Below are positions 160 to 17,863 of a DNA stretch of 17,893 nt, one piece after another. The stretch is from assembly GCA_001915545.1 (NCBI GenBank), contig MNQS01000209.1:1-17893 (forward strand), read 5' to 3'. The notes below the pieces were generated by a model, which worked only from the letters and a program-made list of their open reading frames with translations, was not told where the DNA came from and searched no databases. The first letter of the stretch is position 1, and every line of letters begins with the position of its first letter. The stretch comes from Bacteroides sp. 43_108 (lineage in GTDB: Bacteria > Bacteroidota > Bacteroidia > Bacteroidales > Bacteroidaceae). The position numbers were made by a program, and so were the translations under genes.

Positions 160-217
160 CATGTTCTTCTGTCTGAAAGTAAGCGAACACCCACGAAATT
201 GCACAATGTTTATGACA

Positions 218-243
218 CGTCATCCCTGGCCAGGACCAGGGAA
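218..243 (-). repeat. REP-like palindromic element, copy 1
   Basis: Arms TCCCTGG (223-229) and CCAGGGA (236-242) are perfect complements around a 6-base loop. Read on the minus strand the palindrome is followed by TGACG. Three further copies lie at 14365-14391, 14673-14699 and 14844-14870. This copy is about 50 bases from the leader-like end of array A, the same arrangement as the second copy and array B. The shape resembles dispersed REP/dRS-type palindromes of other bacteria, but I do not recognise this exact family. Confidence 0.7.
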
Positions 244-1465: not shown

Positions 1466-1487
1466 AATCACTATAAAACATATTTTA

Positions 1488-1501
1488 ATCTACTAGTAGA
1501 T
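1488..1501. other. 14-bp perfect palindrome between rfbB and the flippase gene
   Basis: ATCTACTAGTAGAT is self-complementary over all 14 bases. It lies in the 52-base gap between rfbB and the flippase gene, 17 bases before the flippase start. It could be an operator or a weak hairpin. It sits exactly where base composition changes from the rfbB style to the A/T-rich cassette. The function is not known and a chance palindrome is possible. Confidence 0.4.
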
Positions 1502-1517
1502 CTATCCAAAATAAAAC

Positions 1518-3056: not shown

Positions 3057-3060
3057 AATA

Positions 3061-4215
3061 ATGAAAGTAGCTATTCTAACATTTGCACGTACAAATAATT
3101 ACGGAGCAACGTTACAATGTTATGCCCTATCAAAGTTTATTGAACAATGTGGACATCAGACTTCAATCATTAACGTTCCATTAATGAAAGCCGGTGCACC
3201 GAGAAAAAAATCATTTGTTGAGAAGCTGATGTCGAAAATGCATGGTTATTTCCATCAATATGAGAAAAGGTATCATAGGACGACTGAAGAATTACAAAAA
3301 GACCGAGAGTATGATAGACAGAATATGTTACTTTTTGATGATTTTCGTTCTGTTTACTTTCCAAACTTGACGCATGAATATCTGACGGAAGCAGATTTCG
3401 AGAAAGATTTTCCACAGGCCGACTTATATGTCGTGGGGAGTGATCAAGTGTGGAACCTTTGGGTCACTAATATACAATACCCTTTGTTTTTTTTCTCATT
3501 TTTGAAACATAGAGAGAAAAGAATTTCTTATGCTGCTTGCTTGGGGGGGGACAGAAACTTTAAGTTTGAAAATGAAGAATTAAATTCAATAAGGAATTTG
3601 TTAGCTGATTTCAATGGTATTAGTGTACGTGACACGACAGGTCTTTCAATATTAAAAGAAAAATTTAATATTGATGCCACACAAGTACTAGATCCTACTT
3701 TTTTAATAAATTCATACGACGAATTATTAAAAGACTCTTCGGTTGATGCAAGCTGTAGCTTGTTCAGTTTTAAATTTATAATTAATGATGAATGGGTAAA
3801 AGTTATCAAATATTTAGCTGAAGAACTGTCTTTGAACATACGGATGGACACTTGCTTGATACACATTAAGGGATTACCGTTTAAGCCTTTATGCACAGTA
3901 CAGGATTGGTTGAAACTTATCAAGACTTCTGATTTTGTATTTACAGATTCTTTTCACGGTATGGTATTTTGTATCATTTTTAAAAAGCAGTTTATTGTCA
4001 CGCCGTCCTATAAAGGTGGAGAAGAAAGATATATGGATTTGGCTTTAAAACTCGGATTGGAAGAAAGGGTATATACATCGCCTAAGGAGATATTTCTCAG
4101 CAATAAGTGGAAAAATGTCATTGATTATGATGCGGTCTATAAAAAACTTGACGTACTAAGGGAGAACTCAAAGAAATTTCTCACCCAATATCTCATTCAA
4201 AATATTAACCCTTAA
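3061..4215 (+). CDS. Polysaccharide pyruvyl transferase family protein
   Basis: The family transfers pyruvate from phosphoenolpyruvate to a sugar as a ketal, adding a negative charge to the polymer. The 384-residue product shows the family landmarks: TNNYGATLQCYAL (11-23), DLYVVGSDQVWN (121-132), ISYAACLGG (155-163) and TDSFHGMVFCIIF (295-307), the last being the strongly conserved D-S-F-H-G block. Length is normal for the family. Codons 161-164 contain a run of eight G (3543-3550), striking in such an A/T-rich gene. The frame is open here, but a gain or loss of one G would truncate the protein soon after residue 164. It starts 4 bases after the flippase gene and ends 6 bases before the next gene. 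The acceptor sugar is unknown. Confidence 0.9.
   Translation: MKVAILTFARTNNYGATLQCYALSKFIEQCGHQTSIINVPLMKAGAPRKKSFVEKLMSKMHGYFHQYEKRYHRTTEELQKDREYDRQNMLLFDDFRSVYFPNLTHEYLTEADFEKDFPQADLYVVGSDQVWNLWVTNIQYPLFFFSFLKHREKRISYAACLGGDRNFKFENEELNSIRNLLADFNGISVRDTTGLSILKEKFNIDATQVLDPTFLINSYDELLKDSSVDASCSLFSFKFIINDEWVKVIKYLAEELSLNIRMDTCLIHIKGLPFKPLCTVQDWLKLIKTSDFVFTDSFHGMVFCIIFKKQFIVTPSYKGGEERYMDLALKLGLEERVYTSPKEIFLSNKWKNVIDYDAVYKKLDVLRENSKKFLTQYLIQNINP
3543..3550 (+). repeat. G8 homopolymer tract inside a pyruvyl transferase gene
   Basis: Eight consecutive G lie in frame across codons TTG GGG GGG GAC. Long G tracts are classic sites of slipped-strand mispairing in phase-variable surface genes of other bacteria. 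The present length keeps the gene open. Whether this tract varies is inference. Confidence 0.6.
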
Positions 4216-4221
4216 TATTTT

Positions 4222-5157
4222 ATGGAAGCAATCAAGACGTGTGTACGCAATATCATATCCGTATTAGGCAATATACTTTTTTCTATAATATTCTTATTGT
4301 CTCGCTCTCCTAAACTCAAAGACACAAAATATTATGTTTCTATATGCGCTATATTCAAAGATGAGGCCAGATATTTAGTTGAATGGATTGAATATCATCG
4401 GTTAGTAGGAGTTGACCATCTATATTTGTACAATAACTTTTCTTCAGACAATTATCAAAAGATACTGAAGCCATACATTGAAGACGGCTATGTCACTTTG
4501 GTGGAATGGCCATATGAGTTGGCTCAGATTCCCGCATATCAGCATTGTTATGATAAATTCGGCAGTGAAACCTATTGGTTGATGTATATTGATATAGATG
4601 AGTTTATTTGTCCGTTGTATAGTGCAGACATTAAGGATTGGATTAAAAGGTATGAAAAGTATCCATCCATCATAATGTATTGGTTGATGTTCGGTACTAA
4701 CGGCTTGATTGATTATGATCCCACTAAATTAGTGATAGAACAATACACTTGTTCTTGGAGGAACATCAGAAATGTTGGAAAAATAGCTTTAAACACTAGG
4801 TTCAAGCCTGTAAAAATGTATCATCACTATATATTTTGCTGGGTGAAATTCATGGGAATAAAGTTTAAAGTGCCTTCCATCAATGAAACTCGCAAATTTA
4901 TCTTCTACTATAATGACCATAAGATACCAAAGACAAACTCTATTCAAATTAATCATTACTGGAGTAAGTGCCTTTCTGAATACGTAAGGAAAATTGACAA
5001 AGGCGATATGTTCAGCAAGGGTAATGACCAGATTAGAAAGCGGATGGATTTTTTCTATTGGCATGAACGTCAAAATGTATCGGAAAACAAGGTTATATAC
5101 AGATTTCTTGCAGAACTCAAAATTCAGCTTAAACATATAAATATTAAATTTAAATAG
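4222..5157 (+). CDS. Glycosyltransferase, GT92-like / GT2-like
   Basis: The 311-residue product starts with a hydrophobic stretch (about 9-27) that could anchor it to the inner membrane. A compact GT-A-like catalytic region follows. YYVSICAIFKDEARYLVEWIEYHRLVGVDHLYLYNN (about 37-72, given in full only to mark the typical opening) leads to YIDIDEFI at 122-129, whose D124-x-D126 would bind the metal and nucleotide-sugar. This wording matches the glycosyltransferase family 92 / Glyco_tranf_2_4 group. A conserved-looking INHYWSKCLSEYVRK block lies near residue 243. The gene sits 6 bases after the pyruvyl transferase and 5 bases before the next GT4. Sugar specificity cannot be inferred. Confidence 0.85.
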   Translation: MEAIKTCVRNIISVLGNILFSIIFLLSRSPKLKDTKYYVSICAIFKDEARYLVEWIEYHRLVGVDHLYLYNNFSSDNYQKILKPYIEDGYVTLVEWPYELAQIPAYQHCYDKFGSETYWLMYIDIDEFICPLYSADIKDWIKRYEKYPSIIMYWLMFGTNGLIDYDPTKLVIEQYTCSWRNIRNVGKIALNTRFKPVKMYHHYIFCWVKFMGIKFKVPSINETRKFIFYYNDHKIPKTNSIQINHYWSKCLSEYVRKIDKGDMFSKGNDQIRKRMDFFYWHERQNVSENKVIYRFLAELKIQLKHINIKFK

Positions 5158-5162
5158 ATATA

Positions 5163-6416
5163 ATGAGAGTCCTTTGGTTTTCAATAAATTCAGGCTGTTA
5201 TAGCTCAAAGATTTCTACAGCACATAATGGTGGTGGATGGGTATCTTCTTTAGAAAAAATAGTCAGTAAGCGCAAAGATATTCAATTGGGAATTGCGTTC
5301 GAATATAATTCCAAGAAGTTCAAAGATACAATTGATGGTATTGACTATTATCCCATTAGCGTGTGTTGCAATAGGAGGGAAAAACTAAGGAAAGAGTTTA
5401 CTTTATCCCATGAAGAGAAATTGATCATACCTGAATGTATTAAAATTATAGAGGACTTTAGGCCTGATATCATACAATGTTTTGGATCGGAATGGTGTTA
5501 TGGTCTTGTGGCTCAGTATACGCAAGTACCTGTTGTGATACATATACAAGGGTCGATGCCTTCATATTTCAACGCTTTGTACCCGCCCAGATATTCAAAA
5601 CAAAGTAAGATAATTTACGATTTTTTGCATTTGCACTTGAAAGATGTTATACGAGGTTTGTTTGGTGAGAAGAATAATAGAATGAGAGCAGAACGAGAAA
5701 TAAGAATATTGAAAGCAAATCGCTATTTTTTTGGACGTACAGATTGGGATAAGTCAATAACGAAATTGTTTTCTCCGCAATCTAAATATTTTATCTGTAA
5801 TGAGGCTCTTCGAGATTCATTCCAACTAGCTCATGAAAAATGGAAACCTAACAAGCATGATACAACGACATTATGTACAGTAGGTAGTGGTAGCTTGTGG
5901 AAAGGGTTGGACGTAATACTCAAAACGGCTTCAATACTCAAAGAATACACAAATTTGCATTTTAAATGGATTATGGTGGGAAAGGTTGACAAAAAGGAAT
6001 ATATAGAATGGATGGAACATAAGCGTTTTGAGGAAAGCTGTGTGGATTTTGTAGGTGTACTGGATGAGGCTCAAGTGAAGGACGTTCTTCTCACATCGGA
6101 TATCTATATACATCCTGCCTATATTGATAACAGTCCTAATGCATTGTGTGAGGCCATGCTGTTGGGTATGCCGTGTATAGCAAGTTATGTGGGTGGAATT
6201 CCATCTTTGATTGAAGATGGTGTCTCAGGTATTTTGGTCCCAGTGAATGAGCCTTATTATTTGGCGGAAAAAATAGTGTCATTGGCAAAAGACAAAGATC
6301 TTCAGCAAAGTCTTTCTAATGCAGCAATAGAAAAATCGCGAGAAAGGCATTTTCCGGAAAATATTGAGAATGAATTGATTACTGCGTACAATCAGATATT
6401 AGGAAGTAGAATATGA
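5163..6416 (+). CDS. Glycosyltransferase family 4 (GT-B fold)
   Basis: The 417-residue product has GT-B organisation. The N-terminal acceptor domain contains HNGGGWVSSL (21-30) and FGSEWCYGLVAQ. The C-terminal nucleotide-sugar domain begins near TVGSGSLWKGLDVIL and ends with NSPNALCEAMLLGMPCIAS and GGIPSLIEDGVSG. The usual E-x7-E pair appears in the D-x7-E form (DNSPNALCE), a variant often seen in GT4 enzymes. It probably adds one sugar of the repeat unit on the cytoplasmic face of the membrane. Its stop codon overlaps the start of the acyltransferase by four bases (ATGA at 6413-6416), implying translational coupling. Confidence 0.92.
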   Translation: MRVLWFSINSGCYSSKISTAHNGGGWVSSLEKIVSKRKDIQLGIAFEYNSKKFKDTIDGIDYYPISVCCNRREKLRKEFTLSHEEKLIIPECIKIIEDFRPDIIQCFGSEWCYGLVAQYTQVPVVIHIQGSMPSYFNALYPPRYSKQSKIIYDFLHLHLKDVIRGLFGEKNNRMRAEREIRILKANRYFFGRTDWDKSITKLFSPQSKYFICNEALRDSFQLAHEKWKPNKHDTTTLCTVGSGSLWKGLDVILKTASILKEYTNLHFKWIMVGKVDKKEYIEWMEHKRFEESCVDFVGVLDEAQVKDVLLTSDIYIHPAYIDNSPNALCEAMLLGMPCIASYVGGIPSLIEDGVSGILVPVNEPYYLAEKIVSLAKDKDLQQSLSNAAIEKSRERHFPENIENELITAYNQILGSRI

Positions 6417-7033
6417 AACAATTGATAAATTTTGTAATGAGAATTTTTCATTTTTTTGTGCCCTATTCTTTCTTAAATTTATGTAACAAAATATCGAAGG
6501 TTGTTTACACTGCATGGATGAAAAATGAATTCAAGCAAACTGGTGATATAAGTATTGAAAAAGGATTAAGACTTGTTGGTGGAAAAAGTATTATAATTGG
6601 TAATAAAACAGGATTTGGAAAGAATGGAATACTCCAGGCATGGCACAGTTACAAGGGTGATTTGTTTACACCTTCTTTAATAATAGGTGATAACTGCTGG
6701 ATTGGTGATTATTTTAATATTAGTGCAATCAATTCTATCACTGTCGGTAATGGTGTGTTGATGGGGCGTTGGGTTACTATATTGGACAATGCACATGGTA
6801 AGACCGATTATACGTCTTTGAAAGTTCCTCCTTGTGAAAGACGGTTGTATACCAAATCAGATGTAAAGATCGACAACAATGTATGGATTGGAGATAAAGT
6901 GACTATATTGCCAGGAGTTCACATAGGAGAAGGTGCTGTGATTGGGGCTAATTCTGTTGTTACAAAAGATATTCCTGCATATTCTGTTGCTGCCGGAATA
7001 CCAGCTAAAGTGATAAAGGTATATGGTATATAA
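6413..7033 (+). CDS. Left-handed beta-helix (hexapeptide repeat) acyltransferase
   Basis: The 206-residue product carries hexapeptide repeats typical of acetyl-CoA-dependent O- or N-acyltransferases, such as IIGDNCWIGD (90-99), ITVGNGVLMG (109-118) and VKIDNNVWIGDKVTILPGVHIGEGAVIGANSVV (151-183). H128 within DNAHG is the likely catalytic histidine. The ending IPAYSVAAGIPAKVIK (187-202) is characteristic of this family. The first 35 residues are hydrophobic and could associate with the membrane. It overlaps the preceding GT4 by 4 bases and the following polymerase gene by 11 bases, so all three are likely translated together. It probably acetylates a sugar of the repeat unit. Confidence 0.9.
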   Translation: MKQLINFVMRIFHFFVPYSFLNLCNKISKVVYTAWMKNEFKQTGDISIEKGLRLVGGKSIIIGNKTGFGKNGILQAWHSYKGDLFTPSLIIGDNCWIGDYFNISAINSITVGNGVLMGRWVTILDNAHGKTDYTSLKVPPCERRLYTKSDVKIDNNVWIGDKVTILPGVHIGEGAVIGANSVVTKDIPAYSVAAGIPAKVIKVYGI

Positions 7034-8144
7034 TTTGTTTGTTATAGCATCAGCTTTTATTTTATATGGTTATTATCATAATAAATATAGAGATGATAGA
7101 TATATCAACGCCATATTTATTTTGATGTGGATAATTTTTTCTATTGAGTTTTATACAACAAAGGACTATCCGGTTTACTACAAAGGGTTTTATAATTTGG
7201 AGAATAATGAAAATTGGGAACCGGTTTATAAATTCCTTGTTGAAGCATTTCAGCCTGTTGGATTTATCGTGTTCAATGCTGTTGTTGTTGCATTTGAAAT
7301 ATTTACTCTTTGTTTCTTTTTTAAGAAGGTTGTTCCTCCTAAATACAGATGGTTATCATTGACAATATTAATGTTGGACACTGGAAACTTATTCCTCTTT
7401 ATGAATTTAAAGCGACAATTTTTTGCAATGATGGTTGCAATATGGATCGTTTATTTTTTACTTTATTCGCAACATAAATATCGGTATTTATTTTCTATTT
7501 TTGCTTTTTTAGTTGCTATAAATATCCATTCGTCAGCATATATTGCAATCGGATATTTCTTACTGCCTTTTATTAAAGTTCGGTTAAATAAAGTTGCCAT
7601 ACTGTCAATATTATTAGTATATATTGCGAGTTATACATTTAGGCTGTCATCATTCTCAGATCAATTGTTTTTATTGCTTTCATCTACAGGAAGTAATGCT
7701 GATTATTATGATGCTTACATTCTTCAACAAGAAGACTATGAAGGCACATCCAGCGGTATGGGTAATTTTGTTCTTTTATATAATTTATCCATGTTTTTGT
7801 TACTTTTATTCTTAAATAAAAAATTCACCGAACAGCAATACAAGCTTGTTTTATGTTCCATATTAAGCTTTATTTTGATGAATATTTTAAAGGGAAATTT
7901 CTACAGATTGTATTTTTACTATTCTATCTTTAATATATTTAATATTTCAGTTTTGTTGATGACATTGTTCAAACAAAAGAGAACACTATTTTTGGTCTAT
8001 TTGATTTGTTTGGCGTTTGCGTTACCAATAAAATCATACTATAATGCATTTTTCGGAGAGAAAATATCATATATGACCATAAAATACAGACATTTTTATA
8101 CTATTTTTCACACAAATCCAGATAAAAGAGATTATTTGTTTTAG
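7023..8144 (+). CDS. EpsG/Wzy-like polysaccharide polymerase
   Basis: The 373-residue integral membrane protein has about nine or ten hydrophobic segments. Its N-terminal pattern is that of the EpsG family: a short TM, YHNKYRDDRYINAIF, IEFYTTKDYPVYYKGFYN, then WEPVYKFLVEAF. A later block, LFLFMNLKRQFFAMMVA, contains the R-Q-F motif common in this group. EpsG-like proteins are the usual Wzy equivalents in Bacteroidetes and Firmicutes polysaccharide loci, so this is the best candidate for the repeat-unit polymerase. The start at 7023 lies inside the acyltransferase gene (11-base overlap). Its composition is extremely A/T-rich. Confidence 0.85.
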   Translation: MVYNLFVIASAFILYGYYHNKYRDDRYINAIFILMWIIFSIEFYTTKDYPVYYKGFYNLENNENWEPVYKFLVEAFQPVGFIVFNAVVVAFEIFTLCFFFKKVVPPKYRWLSLTILMLDTGNLFLFMNLKRQFFAMMVAIWIVYFLLYSQHKYRYLFSIFAFLVAINIHSSAYIAIGYFLLPFIKVRLNKVAILSILLVYIASYTFRLSSFSDQLFLLLSSTGSNADYYDAYILQQEDYEGTSSGMGNFVLLYNLSMFLLLLFLNKKFTEQQYKLVLCSILSFILMNILKGNFYRLYFYYSIFNIFNISVLLMTLFKQKRTLFLVYLICLAFALPIKSYYNAFFGEKISYMTIKYRHFYTIFHTNPDKRDYLF

Positions 8145-8195
8145 CTGAGATTTGGAAGCATGTTATGGACAAAATAATTTTATTAAAACGATAAA

Positions 8196-9302
8196 ATGGA
8201 GAAAAAAGCACGTGTAATAGCATTTTACCTTCCTCAGTTTCATCCGACACCGGAGAATGATAAGTATTGGGGAAAAGGATTTACAGAATGGACTAATGTA
8301 GCCAAGGCCAAGCCATTGTTTCGTGGACATTACCAGCCGAGAGTTCCGGCAGACTTAGGTTTTTATGATCTTAGATTGCCAATTATAAGGGAACAACAAG
8401 CTGAAATGGCGAAAAATGCTGGAATTGAAGGCTTCATGTATTGGCATTATTGGTTTGGGAATGGAGTGATGACACTTCAAGATATCTTTGAAGATGTGTT
8501 AGTTTCAGGGAGGCCGGATTTCCCGTTTTGTTTAGGTTGGGCTAATCATTCATGGAGCAATAAGACTTGGACCAAAAACAAAGCATTTCAAAAGGATGTA
8601 ATGATATTTGAAATGAAATATCCAGGAGAAGAAGATTGGATCAAGCATTTCAATTATTGTTTACCAGCGTTTAAAGATAAGCGTTATATAACTGTTGATG
8701 GTAAGCCTTTGTTTTTTATTTGGCACGCTAAAGGTATGCCAGATTGTAAGGCGTTTATTAATAAATGGCGTGAATTGGCTAAAGATGCAGGACTTAAAGG
8801 TATACATTTCTGTACGATTCGTTATGGAGCTAAAACGACAATAGACGAGTTAAAATCTATGGGATTTGATTCCATAAATAATACGGAGCAGTATGAAGCT
8901 GAAAACAGAGCGTTAGGGTTAATTGCAATAAAGAAATTACGTGCTTTGTTGACGCGTATAACTGGTGGTCGAGTGTTAAGGAAATACAATTATTCCCAAA
9001 TCATCAAAAGTTTAACTAGTGAAAATGACAAACGTGAAGATGTATTTCCTACCATTATTGCAGGCTATGACCGGACAGCTCGTGCAGGACGATTAGCTAC
9101 CATCTACCATCATTTTACCCCTGAGAAATTTGATGAGCATGTAAGTCAAATTATTGATGAAGTAAAAGATAAAATGGATGAACACAAAATCATTTTTTTG
9201 AAGTCTTGGAATGAGTGGGCTGAAGGTAATTATGTAGAACCAGATCTTAAATATGGACACGCTTTCCTTGATGTGTTGAAAAGAAATATCTATAAAAGAT
9301 AG
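8196..9302 (+). CDS. WbsX-type glycosyltransferase (GH99-like domain protein)
   Basis: The 368-residue product matches the WbsX / glycoside hydrolase 99-like family found in O-antigen and capsule loci. It opens with VIAFYLPQFHPTPENDKYWG (7-26) and GFTEWTNVAKAKPLFRGHYQ (28-47), followed by PADLGFYDLR (51-60). FMYWHYWFGNG comes later, and SWNEWAEGNYVEPD lies near the C-terminus (about 337-350). These are the family's most conserved blocks and the length is normal. No signal peptide is visible, so it is probably cytoplasmic. Members are thought to act as glycosyltransferases, but the activity is poorly established, so the role is inference. A 51-base gap separates it from the polymerase. Confidence 0.9.
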   Translation: MEKKARVIAFYLPQFHPTPENDKYWGKGFTEWTNVAKAKPLFRGHYQPRVPADLGFYDLRLPIIREQQAEMAKNAGIEGFMYWHYWFGNGVMTLQDIFEDVLVSGRPDFPFCLGWANHSWSNKTWTKNKAFQKDVMIFEMKYPGEEDWIKHFNYCLPAFKDKRYITVDGKPLFFIWHAKGMPDCKAFINKWRELAKDAGLKGIHFCTIRYGAKTTIDELKSMGFDSINNTEQYEAENRALGLIAIKKLRALLTRITGGRVLRKYNYSQIIKSLTSENDKREDVFPTIIAGYDRTARAGRLATIYHHFTPEKFDEHVSQIIDEVKDKMDEHKIIFLKSWNEWAEGNYVEPDLKYGHAFLDVLKRNIYKR

Positions 9303-9383
9303 ATTGATAGTTTTATCAATTTAAGAATTTTTAATTTATTAAAGAAAAGCTTTTTTGTACAATAATTATTATTCATTATTCAA

Positions 9384-10546
9384 ATGCTTGAGATTTGTCC
9401 CTCATCCAAATGTACAGGTTGTGCGGCTTGTGCTCAATCATGTACACATGATGCAATAACAATGTGTATAAGCGCAAACGGTTTTCTATATCCGGAAATA
9501 GATAATGCCGTTTGTGTTGATTGTGGATTGTGTAGTAAGGCGTGTCCTGTTAATAATAAACCATTGTGTAATAATCCGAATAGAGTCTATTTGTGTTGGA
9601 ATAAGCAAGATGACATCAGACTTAAGTCTTCGTCTGGCGGATTGTTTACGGCAATCGCTTCATGGGTCATTAAACAAAATGGTATCGTTTGTGGTGCTAC
9701 GTATGACAAAGAAATGAATGTAATTCATTTAATTGTTGACAATGAGGAAGACTTAAAAAAACTACGTGGTAGCAAATATGTACAAAGTAATGTTGGTGAC
9801 AGCTATAGACATATTAAGTGCGCTTTAAAAAAAACAAATGGGTTTATTTCGTAGGGACACCTTGTCAAGTAGCAGGACTTCGTAATTATTTACGACATGA
9901 CTATGATATGCTTTTGACTTCAGATTTGATTTGTCATGGAGTTCCATCAAATGATTTGTTCATCAAACAAATCAGAAAGTTGGAAAATATAAATGCTTGT
10001 AAAATTGAAGAATTCTTATTCAGGTCAAAAGCACGTTTTGGTCAAGGATGTGATATACAGGTAATCTCATGTGAAGGTAAAAGTCGTTTTTACAATGCAG
10101 AATTATTACCTTACTTTTATGGTTTCTGGAATAATATCACATTACGTCCCAGTTGCTTTGTTTGTGGTTTTGCCCAGACTCAAAGGGCTGGTGATATAAC
10201 ACTTGGAGACTATTGGCTGGCGAAGAAGGAATTTCCCGATGTAAAAATGTCGAAAGGATTGTCACTTGCGTTGGTTAATACAAATAAAGGAGAGGAACTA
10301 TGGTACAAAATTAGTAATAACTTAGAGTATAGAGAAAGTACACTTCATCAAGCTGAACGCGGACAAGGGCAACTTAAAGCTCCTGTCTGTAGACCACAAG
10401 CAAACATTGACTTTCTTTATTCATATGGTGATATGGATTTTGTATCATGTTGCAAAAATTTCCTTACCCCACCATTGAAATACAAGCTAAAATGCCATAT
10501 TAAAAATATAATAAAGTTAATTATTGGGTTTAAATATTGGAAATGA
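9384..10546 (+). pseudogene. Frameshifted Fe-S / coenzyme F420 hydrogenase beta-subunit-like protein
   Basis: Two overlapping frames make up one protein. The first (9384-9854) has two 4Fe-4S motifs, C10-x2-C13-x2-C16-x3-C20 and C44-x2-C47-x2-C50-x3-C54, then the SSGGLFTAIASWVI and LRGSKYVQS blocks. The second (beginning within 9818-10546) continues with FVGTPCQVAGLRNYL, LICHGVPSN and RPSCFVCGFAQTQRAGDITLGDYW, typical of the FrhB/FdhB C-terminal domain. The frames join if one base is added to an A8 run at 9827-9834, giving about 387 residues, near the usual length. Relatives occur in polysaccharide loci next to pyruvyl transferases, as here; their reaction is not established. The break could be a mutation, slippage, programmed -1 shifting or an assembly error. 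The stop overlaps the next gene's ATG (ATGA at 10543-10546). Confidence 0.8.
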
Positions 10547-11673
10547 AAAATTTAATTTTTTATAAAACGACTGCTGACTTTGACAATACAGGTAAGTCTT
10601 GATATATAAGTCTTTGTTGCAGTTCCTTAGACTTTATGGAGATGTTATAATCAATGATGACGTTTCCATTCAACCTTTGTTCCTGAATCGGATAGGTGTA
10701 GCCGATAATGAGCGTATAAGCAGTCGTACGCGAATACCTTTTATTGTATATCTGCTTCTTTCTGGTTTACGATCTTGTTTTTCCAACAGACGTGTATATT
10801 TTGTGACAGGAGTGGGCGAACATGCACTAAAAGGGATGAAAAGTGTTGTTAGGAATATTGTTGCTTTTGCGTTTACAGCTTTATTAAGACTATGTGGCGT
10901 AAAAGTCGTAAGAATTGGTATGAGTATACGTTTTGGTGGAAGATTGGAACAAATTTCTGAAAAAATTTTGTCTTTTGCATTTAATCATTATTATGTTCGT
11001 GATAGTATTTCATTTACTTATTGCCATAATGCAGGAATAGACAAATGTAGACTTGCTCCAGATTTATCATGGGGATATAAAATTCCCACTCAAATGTCGA
11101 ATATTAAATGGGGTGGAAACCGTACATTGGTTTTTAGTTTTCGTGATTTTTGTGAATCTGATATGGATAATGTTGTATATAAAGAGAAACTTACAGCAAA
11201 GCTAATAGCGATAGTGCCAATTCTAGCTCGTAAATATAAAATTCTATTTACTCATCAGTGTAATGAAGATTTTGTTTATATGAAATATCTGTATGGGCGA
11301 TTGTCCGTGACAGATAATGTTAAAATTGTTGACGAACTGATAACATTAGACAATGGTTACGAATATTATGGTCAGGCTGTTATGACTTTTTCCAACCGTC
11401 TGCATGTAATGCTTTTGGCTTATAAGTTCGGTTCTCCAACTGTTTGCATAACAGATGTTAAAAAAACATCGCAAAATTTCAGGCATATTTCATGATAATT
11501 CCTTGGATAATGTTTTGGTGGATATTAATCAGTCTAATAACAATATATTAATGGCAATCAATAATTTGTTAGATGAAAGGGATTTAGTGGAAAGCCGGAT
11601 ACGAGAACGTGAAGGTCGTAATTATAGTGAGCTTTCTTACATTTTTAAGGGTATATTTGAAAAGAAACCATGA
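10543..11673 (+). pseudogene. Frameshifted polysaccharide pyruvyl transferase family protein
   Basis: The original start is probably the ATG at 10543, overlapping the previous stop. It encodes MKNLIFYKTTADFDNTG before a TGA at 10600. The protein resumes in another frame from about 10599 (IYKSLLQFLRLYGDVI), so one base seems missing near 10591-10598. A second shift lies in an A7 run at 11460-11466, where A6 would join ...VCITDVKK to HRKISGIFHDNSLDNV in the frame ending at 11673. The middle part has RDSISFTYCHNAGIDKCRLAPDLSWG and TFSNRLHVMLLAYKFGSP, the family's C-terminal S-x-R-x-H block. The restored length is about 376 residues. The four-base overlap with the next gene (11670-11673) supports the stop at 11673 as ancestral. 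With two breaks it is probably inactive unless these are sequence errors. Confidence 0.78.
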
Positions 11674-12779
11674 ATATATTGATATTGAATAGTATCCTTT
11701 ACACTTCAGAATCAGATGTTATTCCCAAAGTTAAAACGATAAAAGATACAATGATTTATGGTATGTGTCTCGGTTTCGTGAATTTGGGGCATAAAATAAC
11801 GTTAGGAGCGTTGGAAGATTATAGGCCAACTGAAAATGAACATTATGATTTTCCCATTATTTTTTTCAAATCCGATTTGAAAAAAATTTATAAACCTTCA
11901 GTATTGCCTTATTCTTCAGAAATGAAGTCTTATTTGAGGAAACATTGCCAAGATTTTGATATTGTAATAACTAGTGAGGTATTCCAATTCCAATCTTTGT
12001 ATGCTGCATCAATATGTCCGCGAAAAACCATAATATGGCAAGAATTGACATCGCATCAAAATAAGTTTCATGGAATTCCATCAAAAATCTGGCATAATAT
12101 AGTAGCAAGGTTGTTTATGAAGAATGTGGGATGTGTTGTAGCGCGTTCACAAAAAGCTGCTAATTTTATAAGTAAATATATGCTTAATGTGTCAAGTACA
12201 ATTATTGATCACGGTATAAATATTGATAAATTCAAATATTCTGACAAGAAAAAACGACAACTTATAAGTTCTTCACAATTGATTTATAGAAAGAATGTTG
12301 ATGGAATAATTCGTAAATTTGCTAAATTTCATATGCTGAAGGGATATGAAGATATACGTTTAATTATAGCTGGGCGTGGTGAAGAAGAGCATAATTTAAA
12401 GGTATTAACGATAGAATTGGGAATACAAGATTTTGTTGTTTTTGTAGGCTTCTTATCTCAGACTGAACTAAATGATTATATACGTTGCTCGTGTGCATTT
12501 CTTGTCAATACACGTAAGGATCTGAATATGGTTTCCATACCAGAATCTATTGTTTCTGGTACACCGATATTAACAAATCGCCAACCTGCATCATCGGATT
12601 ATATTGATAAATATTCTTTAGGAGTTGTCAAAGACAATTGGGACGAGCATGATATAAAAGATATAGTTGATAACAATAGTATTTATGTAGAAAATTGCAT
12701 AAGATATAGAGAAAAATTGACGAGCAAATATGCTGCACAGCAGTTTGTTGATTTATTTAAAAAAGAAGTAAGACAATGA
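11670..12779 (+). CDS. Glycosyltransferase family 4 (GT-B fold)
   Basis: The 369-residue product is recognised as a GT4 mainly from its C-terminal half: SSSQLIYRKNVDGIIRKFAKF, LIIAGRGEEEHNLKVL, VVFVGFLSQTELNDYI and SIPESIVSGTPILTN. The donor-site glutamate would lie within SIPESIVSG; the usual first glutamate of E-x7-E is not clearly preserved. The N-terminal half is more divergent, with VITSEVFQFQSLYAA and TIIWQELTSHQNKFHG resembling acceptor-site loops. It overlaps the preceding broken pyruvyl transferase by four bases (ATGA) and is the last gene of the A/T-rich run. It probably adds a sugar to the repeat unit; specificity is unknown. Confidence 0.85.
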   Translation: MNILILNSILYTSESDVIPKVKTIKDTMIYGMCLGFVNLGHKITLGALEDYRPTENEHYDFPIIFFKSDLKKIYKPSVLPYSSEMKSYLRKHCQDFDIVITSEVFQFQSLYAASICPRKTIIWQELTSHQNKFHGIPSKIWHNIVARLFMKNVGCVVARSQKAANFISKYMLNVSSTIIDHGINIDKFKYSDKKKRQLISSSQLIYRKNVDGIIRKFAKFHMLKGYEDIRLIIAGRGEEEHNLKVLTIELGIQDFVVFVGFLSQTELNDYIRCSCAFLVNTRKDLNMVSIPESIVSGTPILTNRQPASSDYIDKYSLGVVKDNWDEHDIKDIVDNNSIYVENCIRYREKLTSKYAAQQFVDLFKKEVRQ

Positions 12780-13144
12780 GCTAACGCTACGGCTCTCTAG
12801 GCTGTTTGTGTGCATACACCGTATTCGGCATTGTTATGAAGTTTGTATTGGCCAAACATTGTAGTAATCTTAGATAATTATTTGACTAATACGATAATAC
12901 CTTATTTCACTAAATTCACTCTGCTGTTTATGATGATCAGTGCGTTTTCAGTAAGTGTCCAATTATGATGTATTGCTCAAATCAATGATAAAGCTGATAT
13001 TCACCACTGTAATCAAAACTTGTAAAGAATGTACAGTTGTGATTTTGAGCATTTGTTCATCTGCTACAAAGCGGAGGCGATGTCGCTAGACGAGTCCATT
13101 TTGGACTTTTGTTTAAGAAACAAAGTATTTTAGTATAATAATTA
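12780..13144. other. 365-base intergenic region at the end of the A/T-rich gene run
   Basis: I see no convincing gene on either strand. The region is rich in stop codons in all frames. Near the right end, 13063-13089 contains GCTACAAAGC and then GCGA-TG-TCGC-TAG, which resembles worn units of the hairpin arrays elsewhere in the window. A terminator-like hairpin follows at 13093-13114. The segment at about 12950-13060 could be a remnant of an insertion or older gene, but I cannot identify one. Confidence 0.5.
13093..13114 (+). terminator. Possible intrinsic terminator upstream of the GT4 at 13145
   Basis: AGTCCA (13093-13098) pairs perfectly with TGGACT (13102-13107) around a TTT loop and is followed by TTTGTTT. 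The stem is short. It could end transcription from the 1518-12779 operon. Confidence 0.4.
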
Positions 13145-14305
13145 ATGAAAATCTTATTATCCAATAAATTCTACTACCGTCGTGGTGGTGATTGTATATA
13201 TATGCTCAACCTTGAGCAGTTACTGAAAGAAAATGGTCACGAGGTTGCTGTGTTCGCGATGGATTATCCTGAGAACTTGGATACACCTTGGAAAAAGTAT
13301 TTTCCTTCGAACATGAGTAAGCTGATGGCTTTTTCACGTCCTTTCGGTTCGAGTGAGGTGAAGAATAAGTTTTCGGCTTTGTTGAATGACTTTAAGCCCG
13401 ATGTTGTTCATCTGAACAATATACATACGCAACTGTCGCCTGTTATTGCTGAGGTGGCTCACAAAAAGGGTATTAAGGTCGTTTGGACGCTTCATGACTA
13501 TAAACTGCTTTGTCCACGTTATGACTGTCTAAAAGACGGCAAGGATATATGTGAGCTTTGTTTCAATGGTGATAAGACTCCTTGTAAAACATACAGGTGC
13601 ATGAAAGGTTCAAAGTTGGCTTCGATAATAGGATATAAAGAGGCTGTAATGTGGAACCGTGAACGATTGGAGGCATGCACCGATGTGTTTGTTTGTCCAA
13701 GCAGGTTTATGGCTGACAGGATGGTGCAGGGCGGTTTCAAAAAGGATAAGATGAAGGTGCTGTGCAATTTCATAGATGTACAGAAATGCAAGCGTGATGA
13801 ATTCACGAAGGATGATTATTATTGCTTTATAGGACGTCTGTCGCATGAGAAAGGTGTGAAGACTCTTATTGAGGCAGCAAATAAACTGCCTTATAAACTT
13901 GTGATTATCGGTGGTGGACCGATGGAAGAAGAGCTGAAGGCTGTTGCCGGAAAGAATATTGAGTTTGTCGGTTTCAAACAGTGGAACGAAATTAAAGAAC
14001 TTGTCGGCAATGCAAGATTCAGTGTCATTCCTTCGGAGTGGTACGAGAACAATCCTCTATCTGTAATTGAAGCTCAGTGTCTGGGTACTCCAGTGCTTGG
14101 TGCAAGAATCGGCGGTATACCCGAACTTATAAATGAAGGTGTTACCGGTATGACATTTGAAAGCCGTAATGTGGACGATTTGGCAAAGAAAATTGAAGGC
14201 ATGTGGAAGCATGATTTCGATTATAAGGCTATTGCTGAAATGTCCCAGAAGCAGTATAATGCCGAAAACTATTATACTGAAATAATGAAGGTATATAAAG
14301 GCTGA
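13145..14305 (+). CDS. Glycosyltransferase family 4 (GT-B fold) with a cysteine-rich insert
   Basis: The 386-residue product opens with MKILLSNKFYYRRGGDCIYM, the R-G-G loop being typical of GT4 enzymes. VVWTLHDYKLLCPRYDC (112-128) starts a cysteine-rich stretch with C123, C128, C136, C139, C147 and C152 that may bind metal. The donor domain has FIGRLSHEKGVKTLIEA (228-244, with R231 and K236), LVIIGGGPMEEEL, then SEWYENNPLSVIEAQCLGTPVL with E301-x7-E309. Length is normal and the gene appears intact. Its base composition is closer to rfbB and the downstream genes than to the 1518-12779 run. It stands alone after a 365-base gap, so it probably has its own promoter. It likely acts in the same polysaccharide pathway. 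Confidence 0.93.
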   Translation: MKILLSNKFYYRRGGDCIYMLNLEQLLKENGHEVAVFAMDYPENLDTPWKKYFPSNMSKLMAFSRPFGSSEVKNKFSALLNDFKPDVVHLNNIHTQLSPVIAEVAHKKGIKVVWTLHDYKLLCPRYDCLKDGKDICELCFNGDKTPCKTYRCMKGSKLASIIGYKEAVMWNRERLEACTDVFVCPSRFMADRMVQGGFKKDKMKVLCNFIDVQKCKRDEFTKDDYYCFIGRLSHEKGVKTLIEAANKLPYKLVIIGGGPMEEELKAVAGKNIEFVGFKQWNEIKELVGNARFSVIPSEWYENNPLSVIEAQCLGTPVLGARIGGIPELINEGVTGMTFESRNVDDLAKKIEGMWKHDFDYKAIAEMSQKQYNAENYYTEIMKVYKG

Positions 14306-14364
14306 TATAAGAGGTTATGTGGTCACTATGCTGTCTAGGCACTTGGTGACATCGATAAAAATAA

Positions 14365-14391
14365 GATCCCTGGTCCTAGCCAGGGATGACG
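14365..14391 (+). repeat. REP-like palindromic element, copy 2
   Basis: TCCCTGG (14367-14373) and CCAGGGA (14380-14386) are perfect arms around a six-base loop, followed by TGACG. It lies about 50 bases before the leader-like end of array B, matching the relation of copy 1 to array A. Confidence 0.7.
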
Positions 14392-14443
14392 AGTCGTTGG
14401 CACTGTGCTTGTTTAATGGATGCAAACGTTTTAAAAGACACAA

Positions 14444-14613
14444 GAACATGTGTGAAGCTGACTTCACAAGGTAAAACGCAGTCTGCGCCTGCAAGGTAAA
14501 CGCGCAAGGCGCTAGTTAAATGCGAACAAGTTCGTGATGCTTTTACCTGCACAGCAAGGCTGTGTCATTTACCTGCATCACATATGTGATGTTTTTACCT
14601 GCAACTTTGTTGC
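14444..14613. repeat. Hairpin array B (two convergent half-arrays, seven hairpins)
   Basis: The plus-strand half starts with a leader AGAACATG (14444-14451) shared with array A. It runs through TGTGAAG/CTTCACA (14451-14468), GCAG/CTGC (14478-14492), GCGC/GCGC (14502-14512) and GCGAAC/GTTCGT (14522-14535, one G-T pair), with linkers AGGTAAAAC, AAGGTAAAC and TAGTTAAAT. From there the linkers read in the opposite sense (TTTACCT). The minus half holds CACAGC/GCTGTG (14550-14564), a perfect 16-base palindrome (14576-14591) and GCAAC/GTTGC (14601-14613). A second leader-like stretch (about 14619-14636) then reads inward from the right. The array is entirely non-coding. Confidence 0.8.
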
Positions 14614-14712
14614 TGAAGTTCTTTTGTTCTTCTGTCTTGATTAATTGCTGCATCCTACTTGGTGTCTGATTAGATCCCTGGTCCTTGCCAGGGATGACGT
14701 GTTGGGGCACGT
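14601..14712 (+). repeat. 112-base duplicated unit, copy 1
   Basis: This segment and 14774-14885 align end to end with few gaps. Each begins with GCAAC/GTTGC, then the AAGTTCTTTT and TTCTTCTGTCT leader text, then CATCCT-x-CTTGG, and ends with the REP-like palindrome. The match shows that the terminal hairpin, leader and palindrome travel as one block. It contains no gene. Confidence 0.65.
14673..14699 (+). repeat. REP-like palindromic element, copy 3
   Basis: Perfect arms TCCCTGG (14675-14681) and CCAGGGA (14688-14694) flank a six-base loop, with TGACG following. It is the outer end of the first 112-base unit. Confidence 0.7.
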
Positions 14713-14730
14713 GTAAGATGAGAGAGTGAT

Positions 14731-14786
14731 AGGTAAAAAACAAGCACGCTTTGCTAGCTATTACCTCTTACCTGCAACTATGTTGC
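14731..14786. repeat. Hairpin array D (short, two hairpins, convergent)
   Basis: A plus-strand linker AGGTAAA (from 14731) is followed by an imperfect inverted repeat around CAAGC...CTTTG (about 14741-14753). The polarity then flips: CTATTACCT and TTACCTG lead to GCAAC/GTTGC with a TAT loop (14774-14786). The AGGTAATAGC text at the flip (minus strand) also occurs at the flip point of array A. Confidence 0.6.
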
Positions 14787-14885
14787 TAAAGTTCTTTTAT
14801 TCTTCTGTCTGAATATTTGCAACATCCTGCTTGGAATGAATAAGATACCTGGTTTTGGCCAGAGATGACGGGGTGCCAACATTGT
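14774..14885 (+). repeat. 112-base duplicated unit, copy 2
   Basis: This is the second copy of the block at 14601-14712, with the same order of hairpin, leader-like text and palindrome. It is more diverged at its right end. Confidence 0.6.
14844..14870 (+). repeat. REP-like palindromic element, copy 4 (degenerate)
   Basis: TACCTGG (14846-14852) and CCAGAGA (14859-14865) keep five of seven pairs, and TGACG follows. The two mismatches suggest an older, decaying copy. Confidence 0.5.
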
Positions 14886-14974
14886 GATTTATTTTTTGTG
14901 TAACACAGACTTTTATATACCATATATAGAGATATTCAATTGATTAATATTTAAAATTCAAAACATATTTAATT

Positions 14975-16171
14975 ATGAGTAACGTATCTACACCTACGGA
15001 CGCAAGTATTATTTTGACTTACCGCTGTCCGATGCGTTGTGTGATGTGCAACATCTGGAAAAATCCTACTGACAAGAAACAGGAAATCAAGGCCAGTGAC
15101 CTGAGGTCGCTGCCGAGATTGAAGTTCATTAATCTTACAGGTGGTGAACCGTTCATTCGTGAGGATCTGGATGAGATAGTAGAGGAGTGCTACAAGCATA
15201 CTGATCGTATTGTAATATCTACATCGGGGTGGTTTCAGGAACGAGTAATAGCTTTGGCTAAGAAATTTCCTAACATAGGTATTCGCATATCTATAGAAGG
15301 ACTTGCTGAGAAGAATGATGAGCTTAGAGGTCGTCAAGGTACTTTTGACAAAGCTATCAAAACGTTGAAAACTCTACAGAATATGGGTTTGAAGGATATT
15401 GGGTTTGGTTGTACTGTGAGCAACTATAACTCTGGAGATATGCTCAAACTCTATCAACTCTCTTTGTCCATGGGACTGGAGTTTGCGACAGCAGCTTTCC
15501 ACAATTCTTACTATTTTCATAAGGGAGATAACGTTATTACCAATCATGATGAGGTGTGCGGAAACTTCAGGCAACTCATCGAGTGGCAGTTGAAGGAGAA
15601 GAGCCCGAAGAGTTGGTTCCGTGCGTGGTTCAACATGGGACTGATAAATTATATCGAGGGCAACAGACGTATGCTTCCTTGCGAGGCCGGTACTGCAAAC
15701 TTCTTTATTGACCCATGGGGCGAGGTGATGCCTTGCAACGGCCTTGAGAGTCGTATGGACGACAAGTATAAAGAAAACAAAATGAAAATGGACGGCGACG
15801 ACATGACGGTTGCTGAATATAACGAGAAACTGGCGTCTGACCCTAACAATGTATCAAACGATAAATTGAAACCTGCTGAAAGTGATACGCCTAAGTCTTG
15901 GAGTATGGGTAACATACATGATGCTGACTTTATGACAATCTGGAACAGTGAACAGGCTGCAAGAGTACGTGCTAAGGTGCGTAAGTGTCCTAAGAACTGC
16001 TGGATGGTCGGAACTGCCAGTCCTGTAATGCACAAGTATATCAAATATCCGCTGAAGTGGGCGTTGAAGAATAAACTGCGCTCGATACAGGGCAAACCGG
16101 CATGTCTGGACTTCAAATACTGCAATGTGGGACAGGACCCTCAACAAGGTGACTTGAACTTTGACAGGTAA
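14975..16171 (+). CDS. Radical SAM / SPASM domain protein
   Basis: The 398-residue product has the radical SAM cluster motif C18-x3-C22-x2-C25 in LTYRCPMRCVMC, the SAM-contacting GGEP at 56-59 (LTGGEPFIRED), and RISIEG near 104-109. The C-terminal part has a SPASM-like cysteine set: C236 (LPCEAG), C254 (DPWGEVMPCNG), C338 and C342 (CPKNC), likely holding one auxiliary 4Fe-4S cluster, plus extra C377 and C383. Such enzymes use a 5'-deoxyadenosyl radical for C-H chemistry. Position among glycosyltransferase genes suggests sugar, lipid-carrier or peptide modification, but the substrate is unknown. The start at 14975 follows an A/T-rich stretch without a Shine-Dalgarno motif. The non-coding block upstream implies its own promoter, and a hairpin at 16192-16233 follows. 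Confidence 0.92.
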   Translation: MSNVSTPTDASIILTYRCPMRCVMCNIWKNPTDKKQEIKASDLRSLPRLKFINLTGGEPFIREDLDEIVEECYKHTDRIVISTSGWFQERVIALAKKFPNIGIRISIEGLAEKNDELRGRQGTFDKAIKTLKTLQNMGLKDIGFGCTVSNYNSGDMLKLYQLSLSMGLEFATAAFHNSYYFHKGDNVITNHDEVCGNFRQLIEWQLKEKSPKSWFRAWFNMGLINYIEGNRRMLPCEAGTANFFIDPWGEVMPCNGLESRMDDKYKENKMKMDGDDMTVAEYNEKLASDPNNVSNDKLKPAESDTPKSWSMGNIHDADFMTIWNSEQAARVRAKVRKCPKNCWMVGTASPVMHKYIKYPLKWALKNKLRSIQGKPACLDFKYCNVGQDPQQGDLNFDR

Positions 16172-16191
16172 TCATAAATTGATAGGTATTG

Positions 16192-16233
16192 CTTAAATGG
16201 CAATATATGTATATGCGTGTATTGCTATTTAAG
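16192..16233. terminator. Hairpin between convergent genes, probable terminator
   Basis: CTTAAATGGCAATA (16192-16205) pairs with TATTGCTATTTAAG (16220-16233) over 14 bases with a single G-U pair, leaving a 14-base loop. On the plus strand it is followed by TATTTTG. It lies 21 bases after the radical SAM stop and between that gene and the minus-strand ORF at 16267-16380, so it may serve both directions. Confidence 0.55.
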
Positions 16234-16266
16234 TATTTTGATATGCTGGTAAATTGTACTTTAAAA

Positions 16267-16380
16267 TTATTTCTGTCTTTTCCCTCTAATCAACAACCAT
16301 AGAGCGGAAAGGCACGAGATAAGTATGATGCCTGCATATAGTATATGTTCCTTGATATTGCTTAATATATTATTTGACAT
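16267..16380 (-). CDS. Small single-pass membrane protein (37 residues), unrecognised
   Basis: I do not recognise this protein. The 37-codon ORF begins with ATG at 16380 and ends with TAA at 16267. It has a short polar N-terminus (MSNNILSNIKEH, 1-12), one clear membrane segment (ILYAGIILISCLSALWLLI, 13-31) and a strongly basic tail (RGKRQK, 32-37). This is the layout of a small inner-membrane protein with the tail in the cytoplasm. A Bacteroidetes-type promoter lies just upstream on the same strand (16408-16439), giving a leader of about 20 bases. It is convergent with the radical SAM gene and divergent from the last GT4. A chance ORF is possible, but the amphipathic design, exact -7 box and neat placement argue for a real gene. 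Confidence 0.55.
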   Translation of the reverse strand: MSNNILSNIKEHILYAGIILISCLSALWLLIRGKRQK

Positions 16381-16407
16381 GGCTTTTGCTGGATGATGAT
16401 GTGAGGG

Positions 16408-16439
16408 CAAAAGTAGTGATTTAGATTCAATTCTGAAAA
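16408..16439 (-). promoter_or_regulatory. Bacteroidetes-type promoter for the 37-residue ORF
   Basis: On the minus strand TACTTTTG (16415 to 16408) matches the Bacteroidetes -7 consensus TAnnTTTG exactly. TTTTC (16439 to 16435) lies 19 bases upstream and approximates the -33 TTTG box. The start codon of the small ORF is 27 bases beyond the -7 box. Confidence 0.5.
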
Positions 16440-16442
16440 TTT

Positions 16443-17522
16443 ATGAAGATTGTGGTGACCGGTACTCGTGGCATTCCTAATGTCATGGGCGGTGTGGAGA
16501 CGCACTGTGAGGAACTGTTTCCGCGTATTGCCGAGCGTGGGTTTGATGTGACTGTGATAAGACGAAAGAGTTATGTCAACGATGCGCTGAAGGAGTACAA
16601 GGGCGTGAAACTGGTGGACATTGAGACTCCTAAGAAGAAGTCGTTCGAGGCGATAATCCATACTTTCAGGGCTGTGAACAGGGCCAAGGCGTTGGGGGCT
16701 GATGTGCTGCATATACATGCCATAGGACCAGCACTGCTCGTTCCGTATGCCAAGATGTTGGGAATGAAGGTGGTGTTCACGCACCACGGGCCTGACTACG
16801 ACCGTGACAAGTGGGGACGTGCAGCGAAGATGGTGCTGAAGATGGGTGAACGTATGGGATGTATGTTTGCCGATGAGGTGATAGTTATCTCTGAGGTCAT
16901 CCGCAATCTGATAAAGGATAAGTACGGCAGGACGAAGAATGTGCATCTGATATACAACGGTGTGTCGAAGCCTGAGATATGCGACTATCCGGAGTATTTC
17001 GAGCAACTGGGCATAGAGAAGGGCAAGTATATATTGGGTATGTGCCGTTTCGTGCCGGAGAAGAATCTGCATCATCTTGTCGAGGCTTTCGGCAAGGTGA
17101 CGGATAAACACGGATGCAAGCTGGTTCTGGCGGGAGATACGGATTTTGAGGATGATTATTCTCTTGGACTGAAAAAGATGGCGCGGGAGAATGGGGTGGT
17201 GCTGACTGGTTTCGTGAAGGGACGCAAACTGCATTCTCTGTTGACGAACACGAGGTGCTTCGTCCTGCCGTCGTCGCATGAGGGTCTGCCGATAGCTCTG
17301 CTTGAGGCAATGAGCTACGGGGTACCTGTGATTGTCAGTGACATTCCTGCGAATCTGGAGGTTGGACTGGCCAAGGACCGGTATTTCAGGCTTGGGAATA
17401 TCGGGCAGCTGGCGACGAAGCTTCAGGAGAATATCAACGGCGATTGTGTCCATGTGGACTATGACATGTCCAAATATGATTGGGACAGGATTGCTGATCA
17501 GGTAGCAGAGCTTTATTCATAA
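16443..17522 (+). CDS. Glycosyltransferase family 4 (GT-B fold), rhamnosyltransferase-like N-terminus
   Basis: The 359-residue product opens with MKIVVTGTRGIPNVMGGVET (1-20), the G-T-R-G-I-P-x-x-x-G-G-x-E-T pattern of GT4 enzymes with a DUF1972-type N-terminal domain, several of which are rhamnosyltransferases. HIHAIGPALLVPYAKM (90-105) and THHGPDYDRDKWG (113-125) follow in the acceptor half. The donor half has GMCRFVPEKNLHHLVEAF (199-216, R203 and K207) and SSHEGLPIALLEAMSYGVPV (277-296) with the E280-x7-E288 pair. It is intact, ends in FYS-like AELYS, and is followed 35 bases later by a strong terminator. It is one of the more G/C-rich genes here. Use of dTDP-rhamnose would fit the rfbB gene upstream, but that is inference. 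Confidence 0.93.
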   Translation: MKIVVTGTRGIPNVMGGVETHCEELFPRIAERGFDVTVIRRKSYVNDALKEYKGVKLVDIETPKKKSFEAIIHTFRAVNRAKALGADVLHIHAIGPALLVPYAKMLGMKVVFTHHGPDYDRDKWGRAAKMVLKMGERMGCMFADEVIVISEVIRNLIKDKYGRTKNVHLIYNGVSKPEICDYPEYFEQLGIEKGKYILGMCRFVPEKNLHHLVEAFGKVTDKHGCKLVLAGDTDFEDDYSLGLKKMARENGVVLTGFVKGRKLHSLLTNTRCFVLPSSHEGLPIALLEAMSYGVPVIVSDIPANLEVGLAKDRYFRLGNIGQLATKLQENINGDCVHVDYDMSKYDWDRIADQVAELYS

Positions 17523-17604: not shown

Positions 17605-17787
17605 ACAAAGCAGGGCTTTGTTAGGTAAACGCAGGCAGGGCCTGCTAGGTAAATCGCGAATACTCGCGAGGTAAAACGTGAAGCGTGGCTTCACTAGGTA
17701 AAACGCGCGATGCGCTAGGTGGATGCGAGCTGAGCTCGCTAGGTAAACGCAATGGAGTTGCTAGGTAAACATGAAGCACGGCTTCAT
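17605..17787 (+). repeat. Hairpin array E (eight inverted repeats with constant TAGGTAAAC linkers)
   Basis: Eight consecutive inverted repeats, nearly all with 3-base loops, are separated by an almost invariant nine-base linker. The arms are ACAAAGC/GCTTTGT (17605-17621), GCAGGC/GCCTGC (17631-17645), CGCGA/TCGCG (17655-17668), GTGAAGC/GCTTCAC (17678-17694), GCGC/GCGC (17705-17715), GCGAGC/GCTCGC (17725-17739), GCAAT/GTTGC with one G-T pair (17749-17761) and ATGAAGC/GCTTCAT (17771-17787). The linkers are TAGGTAAAC, TAGGTAAAT, AGGTAAAAC, TAGGTAAAAC, TAGGTGGAT, TAGGTAAAC and TAGGTAAAC. Units are 20-27 bases long. All linkers point the same way, unlike arrays A, B and D. It lies between two terminators, so it is probably not part of a coding transcript. 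The function is unknown. Confidence 0.85.
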
Positions 17788-17816
17788 TAGGGATATTCAG
17801 TAAATAGAATAAAATT

Positions 17817-17863
17817 AGCCAACTAATTCATACACAAAGTATTGCGAATTAGCTGGCTTTTTT
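17817..17863 (+). terminator. Intrinsic terminator at the right end of the window
   Basis: AGCCAACTAATTC (17817-17829) pairs with GAATTAGCTGGCT (17846-17858) with one G-U-type mismatch, followed by a T6 run (17858-17863). An A4 run on the left arm side makes it plausible in both directions, so it may also serve a convergent gene beyond the window. Confidence 0.7.

Follow-up and report, generated by a model that had tools for sequence, protein, structure and literature searches.

The intergenic array at positions 17605-17787 of the window (the whole 17,893-nucleotide stretch of Bacteroides sp. 43_108, contig MNQS01000209.1) is a chain of eight short hairpins joined by a constant linker, in which the hairpin arms differ from unit to unit and remain paired. 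The window holds three such arrays within 17.9 kb, here named A, B/B2 and C (the array at 17605-17787), which lie on both strands. The arrays appear to be a type of repeated hairpin element without a name, akin in style to bacterial palindromic repeats. Our leading but tentative reading, to which we give slightly less than even weight, is that array C is one member of a dispersed, composite, BIME-type intergenic repeat whose units would be read on single-stranded DNA, as a fold plus a linker, by an enzyme acting in trans.

Under this reading, the repeat is a chain of short hairpins with a fixed linker of 7-9 nt, to which two of the three arrays add an end motif at their boundary and CGTC-type REP palindromes alongside. 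On single-stranded DNA, each hairpin would present its flanking linker to the trans-acting enzyme, probably a HuH (Y1) nuclease from the TnpA/RAYT superfamily, and nicking and rejoining at the linkers would allow units to be copied, inverted, lost and exchanged. Since only folding would count inside a hairpin, the letters of the arms would be free to turn over and the linker would stay fixed.

Structure of the array

The extent given by the initial annotation is exact, with hairpin 1 beginning at 17605 and hairpin 8 stopping at 17787, and its description as eight hairpins with constant linkers and arms unlike between units was confirmed by both sequence and folding. On the plus strand (arm, loop and arm separated by points), the hairpins are located at 17605-17621 (ACAAAGC.AGG.GCTTTGT), 17631-17645 (GCAGGC.AGG.GCCTGC), 17654-17669 (TCGCGA.ATAC.TCGCGA), 17678-17694 (GTGAAGC.GTG.GCTTCAC), 17705-17715 (GCGC.GAT.GCGC), 17725-17739 (GCGAGC.TGA.GCTCGC), 17749-17761 (GCAA.TGGAG.TTGC) and 17771-17787 (ATGAAGC.ACG.GCTTCAT). 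Their strict Watson-Crick stems are 7, 6, 5, 7, 4, 6, 4 and 7 bp in that order (46 pairs); units 5 and 7 thus have stems of only 4 bp, and the loop of unit 7 is 5 nt long. The seven linkers resemble TAGGTAAAC, which is the sequence of the first (17622-17630, plus strand); six contain AGGTAAA and one reads TAGGTGGAT. In the third linker the first A of AGGTAAA, which is the final A of hairpin 3, doubles as a paired base of that hairpin.

The arms of array C stay complementary well beyond chance: the 46 observed pairs compare with 20.6 +/- 2.3 in shuffled units (0 of 2,000 shuffles reached 46) and with 28.1 +/- 3.6 when the 3' halves were dealt among the units (best 42; 0 of 5,991 sampled permutations reached 46). 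The window contains 17 AGGTAAA sites vs 2.8 expected, a count reached in none of 200 shuffles, and ten runs of a first-order Markov control of the window gave no chain of at least three hairpins. A chance origin was rejected on the AGGTAAA excess, the pairing excess and the Markov controls. Loops and stems were surveyed in 13 linker-defined units of the window, 12 of which have a stem of at least 4 bp. Among these 12, loops measure 3-4 nt in 11 (triloops in eight) and a GC step lies under the loop in seven, whereas the loops of background hairpins are spread over 3-6 nt.

Arrays A, B/B2 and C overlap no open reading frame (ORF) of at least 80 amino acids, as had been claimed for array C. The further claim that array C sits between two terminators held on one side, where a terminator scan called 17580-17558 on the minus strand, but the hairpin at 17812-17863 was detected solely as an inverted repeat, the arms of which are 16 nt apart. 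Neither of the two features that accompany the other arrays, the end motif and the CGTC palindrome, was found for array C within the window.

The arrays are located at the edges and in one gap of a polysaccharide cluster (323-17522) that encodes an RmlB-like dehydratase, a MatE-type flippase, a pyruvyl transferase, WbsX-type and family-4 glycosyltransferases, and a radical SAM/SPASM protein. A glycosyltransferase of the window scored at best 75% across 295 genomes of the order of G001, and RmlB at best 92% across 393 genomes (81% as DNA). At 9384-10546, FrhB/FdhB N- and C-terminal domains are encoded in two overlapping frames, and the gene looks split.

Additional arrays in the window

The initial annotation treated the array as one without relatives in kind, a view not supported by the repetition within the window and by the recurring CGTC-flanked ends of A and B. 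Eleven of the 17 AGGTAAA sites lie outside array C, and nine of these 11 are in A and B/B2, both of which are intergenic. Array A (1-160, mostly minus strand, truncated by the window start) joins unlike hairpins, some of them imperfect units, by AGGTAAA/AGTTAAA linkers. Array B (14436-14637) consists of a forward half with AGGTAAA followed by an inverted half with TTTACCT; its boundaries carry inverted AGACACAAGAAC / AGACAGAAGAAC motifs, and an outer inverted repeat (14418-14448 / 14625-14655, 71%) encloses it. In array B2 (14731-14810), the right end of B is present a second time, in part.

The end motif AGACAGAAGAAC, never with more than one mismatch, marks the outer ends of A (163-174, minus strand) and B2 and each end of B. 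When two mismatches are allowed, the bare pattern reaches four matches in 8 of 200 shuffles, and because four bare matches are not rare, the evidential weight of the motif comes from its positions. CGTC-tagged palindromes lie beside A (start at 218-229, plus strand; end estimated by eye at ~243), to the left of B (14366-14391, minus strand), between B and B2 (14674-14699, minus strand) and to the right of B2 (14845-14870, minus strand, one core mismatch). These palindromes start with CGTCATCCCTGG, one of them with a mismatch; four were found vs 0.5 expected, and none of 200 shuffles contained four.

Motif and palindrome recur at fixed distances. Left-type ends have 43 bp (A) or 44 bp (B) between the two, and the palindrome turns its CGTC end towards the array. 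Right-type ends have 36 bp (B) or 34 bp (B2), and there the non-CGTC end points towards the array. The right ends of B and B2 align, and since the alignment continues into the CGTC palindrome, the array end and the palindrome were duplicated together. The left ends of A and B are likewise homologous, with the motif, the first stem and the first linker aligned. Further inward, in this one pair of copies, the linkers remain in register and hairpins 2 and 3 are unlike; the strict stems of hairpin 3 are 6 and 4 bp, so both versions pair, whereas hairpin 2 has a stem of 2 bp in A (poor pairing) vs 4 bp in B. The inverse repeat logic described initially for array C, a constant linker with changing arms, is therefore also visible between copies A and B, again in one pair. 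The recurring ends, with their motif and CGTC palindromes, identify A and B as parts of a composite intergenic repeat.

Occurrence in other genomes

The same organisation was found in two other genomes. A contig scan with a three-linker pattern gave at least 118 stretches, and among the 80 matches listed, unlike hairpins with one linker were recognised by script and by eye at five loci, three of them in G004, a Clostridia MAG from goat caecum that is unrelated to the window genome. The remaining listed stretches were simple or near-identical tandem repeats (e.g. L003, L092) or single stretches.

In G004, a two-linker AGGTAAA pattern matched 55 times (31 forward, 24 reverse) vs once for the reversed pattern. 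A detector blind to the linker, applied to a 137.8 kb sample for which 12 of 20 contigs had been picked for AGGTAAA, reported 21 chains of at least three hairpins, and one first-order Markov control run reported none. On 28 contigs of the same genome not picked for AGGTAAA (144 kb), it reported four chains of at least three hairpins (one no better than chance-like) and, with the minimum set at two hairpins, 26 chains vs 9, 6 and 6 in Markov controls. At least six linkers are used (ATTTACC, ATATCGA, GCTTCAT, TATATCA, ATTTCGC and ATTTAGC), and 19 of the 21 chains overlap no ORF of at least 90 codons, the other two overlapping the start-proximal part of an ORF.

Pairing is kept while arms vary in G004 too, where units were defined by linkers and without reference to pairing. 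The mean best stem is 5.5 bp for 34 distinct AGGTAAA units and 6.2 bp for 26 ATATCGA units, vs 3.0 and 2.8 bp for swapped halves, respectively, and none of 300 shuffles reached the observed mean for either linker; stems likewise exceed swapped halves for four further linkers tested. C-GNA-G loops, which form stable DNA mini-hairpins (PMC4686876, excerpt), are present in 9 of 22 ATATCGA units with a stem of at least 5 bp, but in none of the 13 window units, and this loop is therefore not a common hallmark.

A further case was met by chance in G100, a genome from the family of G001, where TAGAAGTTAAC-linked hairpins occur at several places in 350 kb. The linker-blind detector gave four chains here, one of them clear, vs 3, 0 and 1 in Markov controls; because this count is near that of the controls, the case rests on the repeated linker as read by eye. 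When sets of 399, 7, 56 and 393 genomes were searched by pattern, inspection by eye of the places listed (for the set of 393, the first places) showed no succession of AGGTAAA hairpin units. Four patterns matched 16, 9, 0 and 7 stretches in IMG/VR viral contigs, none of which was an array of unlike hairpins on inspection; two protein scans of viral contigs found no relative, and plasmids gave no match. Two small loci were noted in passing: L120 (IMG/VR) carries two identical hairpin units with a CTAGGTAAAC linker at a gene end (~2527-2557), and L239, in a genome from the family of G507, carries three ACACG..CGTGT hairpins joined by taacgctg (551-611); the stems are alike, and this is possibly another small array.

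A broader proposal, which we consider doubtful, is that these arrays represent a general and undescribed class of repeat spanning at least two phyla, with many linkers per genome, in which the linker would be the identity of the element, the hairpins would be continually renewed, and a dedicated enzyme would recognise the fold and linker on single-stranded DNA. Known palindromic repeats have usually come to light through conserved arms, an approach that could overlook elements in which the linker is kept and the arms are renewed. If general, such a class would be a natural experiment in how pairing persists as hairpins change, and would mark an activity in Bacteroidales and Clostridia that processes single-stranded DNA.

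Predicted folding and maintenance of the hairpins

Folded as single-stranded DNA (z = -5.45), array C forms eight separate hairpins, the first of which gains a few outer pairs. Across nine array segments from three genomes, DNA z-scores range from -6.30 to -1.98 (eight of nine at -3.59 or lower), and RNA z-scores of the same segments range from -5.19 to -0.97. The possibility that the array acts as RNA, its transcript forming a chain of hairpins that would serve in protection, pausing or the recruitment of a protein while selection keeps the pairs, is in our judgement unlikely. It agrees with the minus-strand RNA of array C, which forms eight hairpins in the centroid (z = -5.26), with the five G004 array segments that fold well as RNA (z from -2.69 to -4.65), and with the location of some G004 arrays just upstream of a gene (L313 3995-4103, 2419-2480). 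The plus-strand RNA of array C, however, fails to form the chain (z = -1.64), and orientation relative to genes varies: A is unlike C, B runs both ways, and the G004 families occur both ways. By eye, array C also lies beyond a terminator-like hairpin that follows a glycosyltransferase gene. An argument from folding as DNA only is itself weakened, as the minus-strand RNA of array C also folds, three of the nine DNA segments (L306, L397 and window 14530-14625) adopt partly longer-range pairing and no plain chain, and the riboswitch control was weak (DNA z = -0.70, RNA z only -1.17).

The pairing may be kept by selection or by a copying mechanism, the two options of the initial annotation. Mutational upkeep without function is in our judgement unlikely. 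Intrastrand template switching at stalled forks would perfect palindromes by altering both arms at once, and recombination would grow the arrays. Hairpins of 15-20 nt are of plausible size for quasipalindrome mutation. Such a process would fit the unit-by-unit covariation of arms in the window and in G004, and a balance of decay and repair would be expected to leave imperfect units, such as those with 2-3 bp stems found in both. Left unexplained by it are the conservation of the linker, the presence of several linkers per genome, each with its own arrays, and the recurring ends at fixed distances.

Comparison with repeat families

The initial annotation knew of no named element with this grammar, and in this respect it stands in part: the window has no Rfam match at gathering score, and the open-access literature searched contains no description of this combination of hairpin and linker, but the arrays resemble BIMEs and clustered REPs. 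At the five G004 loci, Rfam identified one riboswitch, which is outside the arrays. Among the candidate RNAs of a human-microbiome survey are palindromic ones, in part from Bacteroidetes, which might be REPs (PMC8040213, excerpt).

Like BIMEs and clustered REPs, the arrays are groups of short hairpins between genes that occur in either orientation and several times per genome (PMC3733652 and PMC6006769, excerpts). The mosaic organisation is seen in the window as three arrays on both strands, two of them with CGTC palindromes. In BIMEs the hairpin sequence is the conserved part, whereas here the linker is constant, the hairpin is variable and there is no GTAG foot. A REPIN comprises two similar REPs, but each half of array B comprises several unlike hairpins; the inverted pairing of hairpin units in array B is nonetheless REPIN-like.

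The arrays were compared with other known elements by their feet, arms and spacing. At the 5' foot, the GT[AG]G of GTAG REPs is absent and the feet of the array are TAGGTAAAC or its complement GTTTACCTA. CRISPR arrays consist of identical direct repeats of ~21-48 nt with non-palindromic spacers, whereas the arrays have a constant stretch of 7-9 nt and vary in their palindromes. As intrinsic terminators (a GC-rich hairpin with a T tract), one of the eight hairpins passes a simple scan (17678-17694, minus strand) and the arrays as such do not. The CGTC REP superfamily, the phyla of which include Bacteroidetes, has a CGTC end and an 8-9 bp stem beginning with AT (Di Nocera et al. 2013, PMC3733652, excerpt). 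The palindromes CGTC-ATCCCTGG..CCAGGGAT beside A and B agree with that description, but the hairpin arrays themselves are without a CGTC end and depart from it. Nor are the arms conserved between copies as in REPs, since they vary from unit to unit and, at hairpins 2 and 3, between A and B; the first stem is common to these homologous copies. By its foot and by the conserved-arm criterion, the array falls outside the GTAG and CGTC REP families, and the notion of an unrecognised, merely different-looking member, favoured by the CGTC palindromes adjoining A and B, is most improbable given the missing foot motif and the variation of arms between units and copies.

Associated proteins

The single-strand nuclease invoked by our preferred reading would resemble TnpA-REP/RAYT enzymes and those acting on IS200/IS605 ends, which recognise a hairpin structure together with a short foot sequence (Quentin et al. 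2018, PMC6006769, excerpt); the arrays differ in having no such gene beside them in the window, and in other genomes the link is weak. In favour of such an enzyme, known TnpA-REP enzymes depend on a guide sequence where the hairpin has its foot (PMC6006769, excerpt). Against a HuH nuclease counts the linker TAGGTAAAC, which is neither GTRG nor CGTC. In the window, neither a Pfam scan of eight proteins nor the ORF list revealed a Y1 gene. G004 has five Y1 matches, four above the cut-off, and by inspection one of the five is directly adjoined by an array: L299, a RAYT-like gene with an ATATCGA array just upstream. GTAG-type palindromes were seen by inspection in or beside the RAYT-like genes L299, L300 and L301, and look like the genes' own cognates. 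We infer the nuclease only, because none is present in the window and the association in other genomes is weak. Hairpin arrays with other linkers also occur near L299 and L300.

It is very unlikely that the arrays are the ends of a mobile element of the PF05635 four-helix-bundle protein (23S rRNA intervening-sequence protein), a candidate for ownership of the arrays that is suggestive in G004 and unsupported in Bacteroidales. In G004, a chain of at least two hairpins lies within 400 bp of four of six PF05635 matches vs 129 of 1,090 random placements, chains flank both sides of two of the six vs no random placement, and one PF05635 gene sits between two inverted ATATCGA arrays (L313 3426-4103), but the numbers are small and the gene ends approximate. 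Among Bacteroidales, where 147 of 198 genomes have a PF05635 match, 30 PF05635 loci gave one chance-like chain of at least three hairpins in 94 kb, compared with three in 408 kb of control loci, and none of the eight window proteins scanned matched PF05635.

In G100, the single Y1 match is flanked on each side by GC-rich hairpins with other linkers, and not by the TAGAAGTTAAC arrays of that genome. This Y1 gene (L398) encodes a YIKNQQEHH motif, like subclass 1.2 of Quentin et al. 2018 (PMC6006769, excerpt), and by inspection is framed by inverted motifs and GC-rich hairpins.
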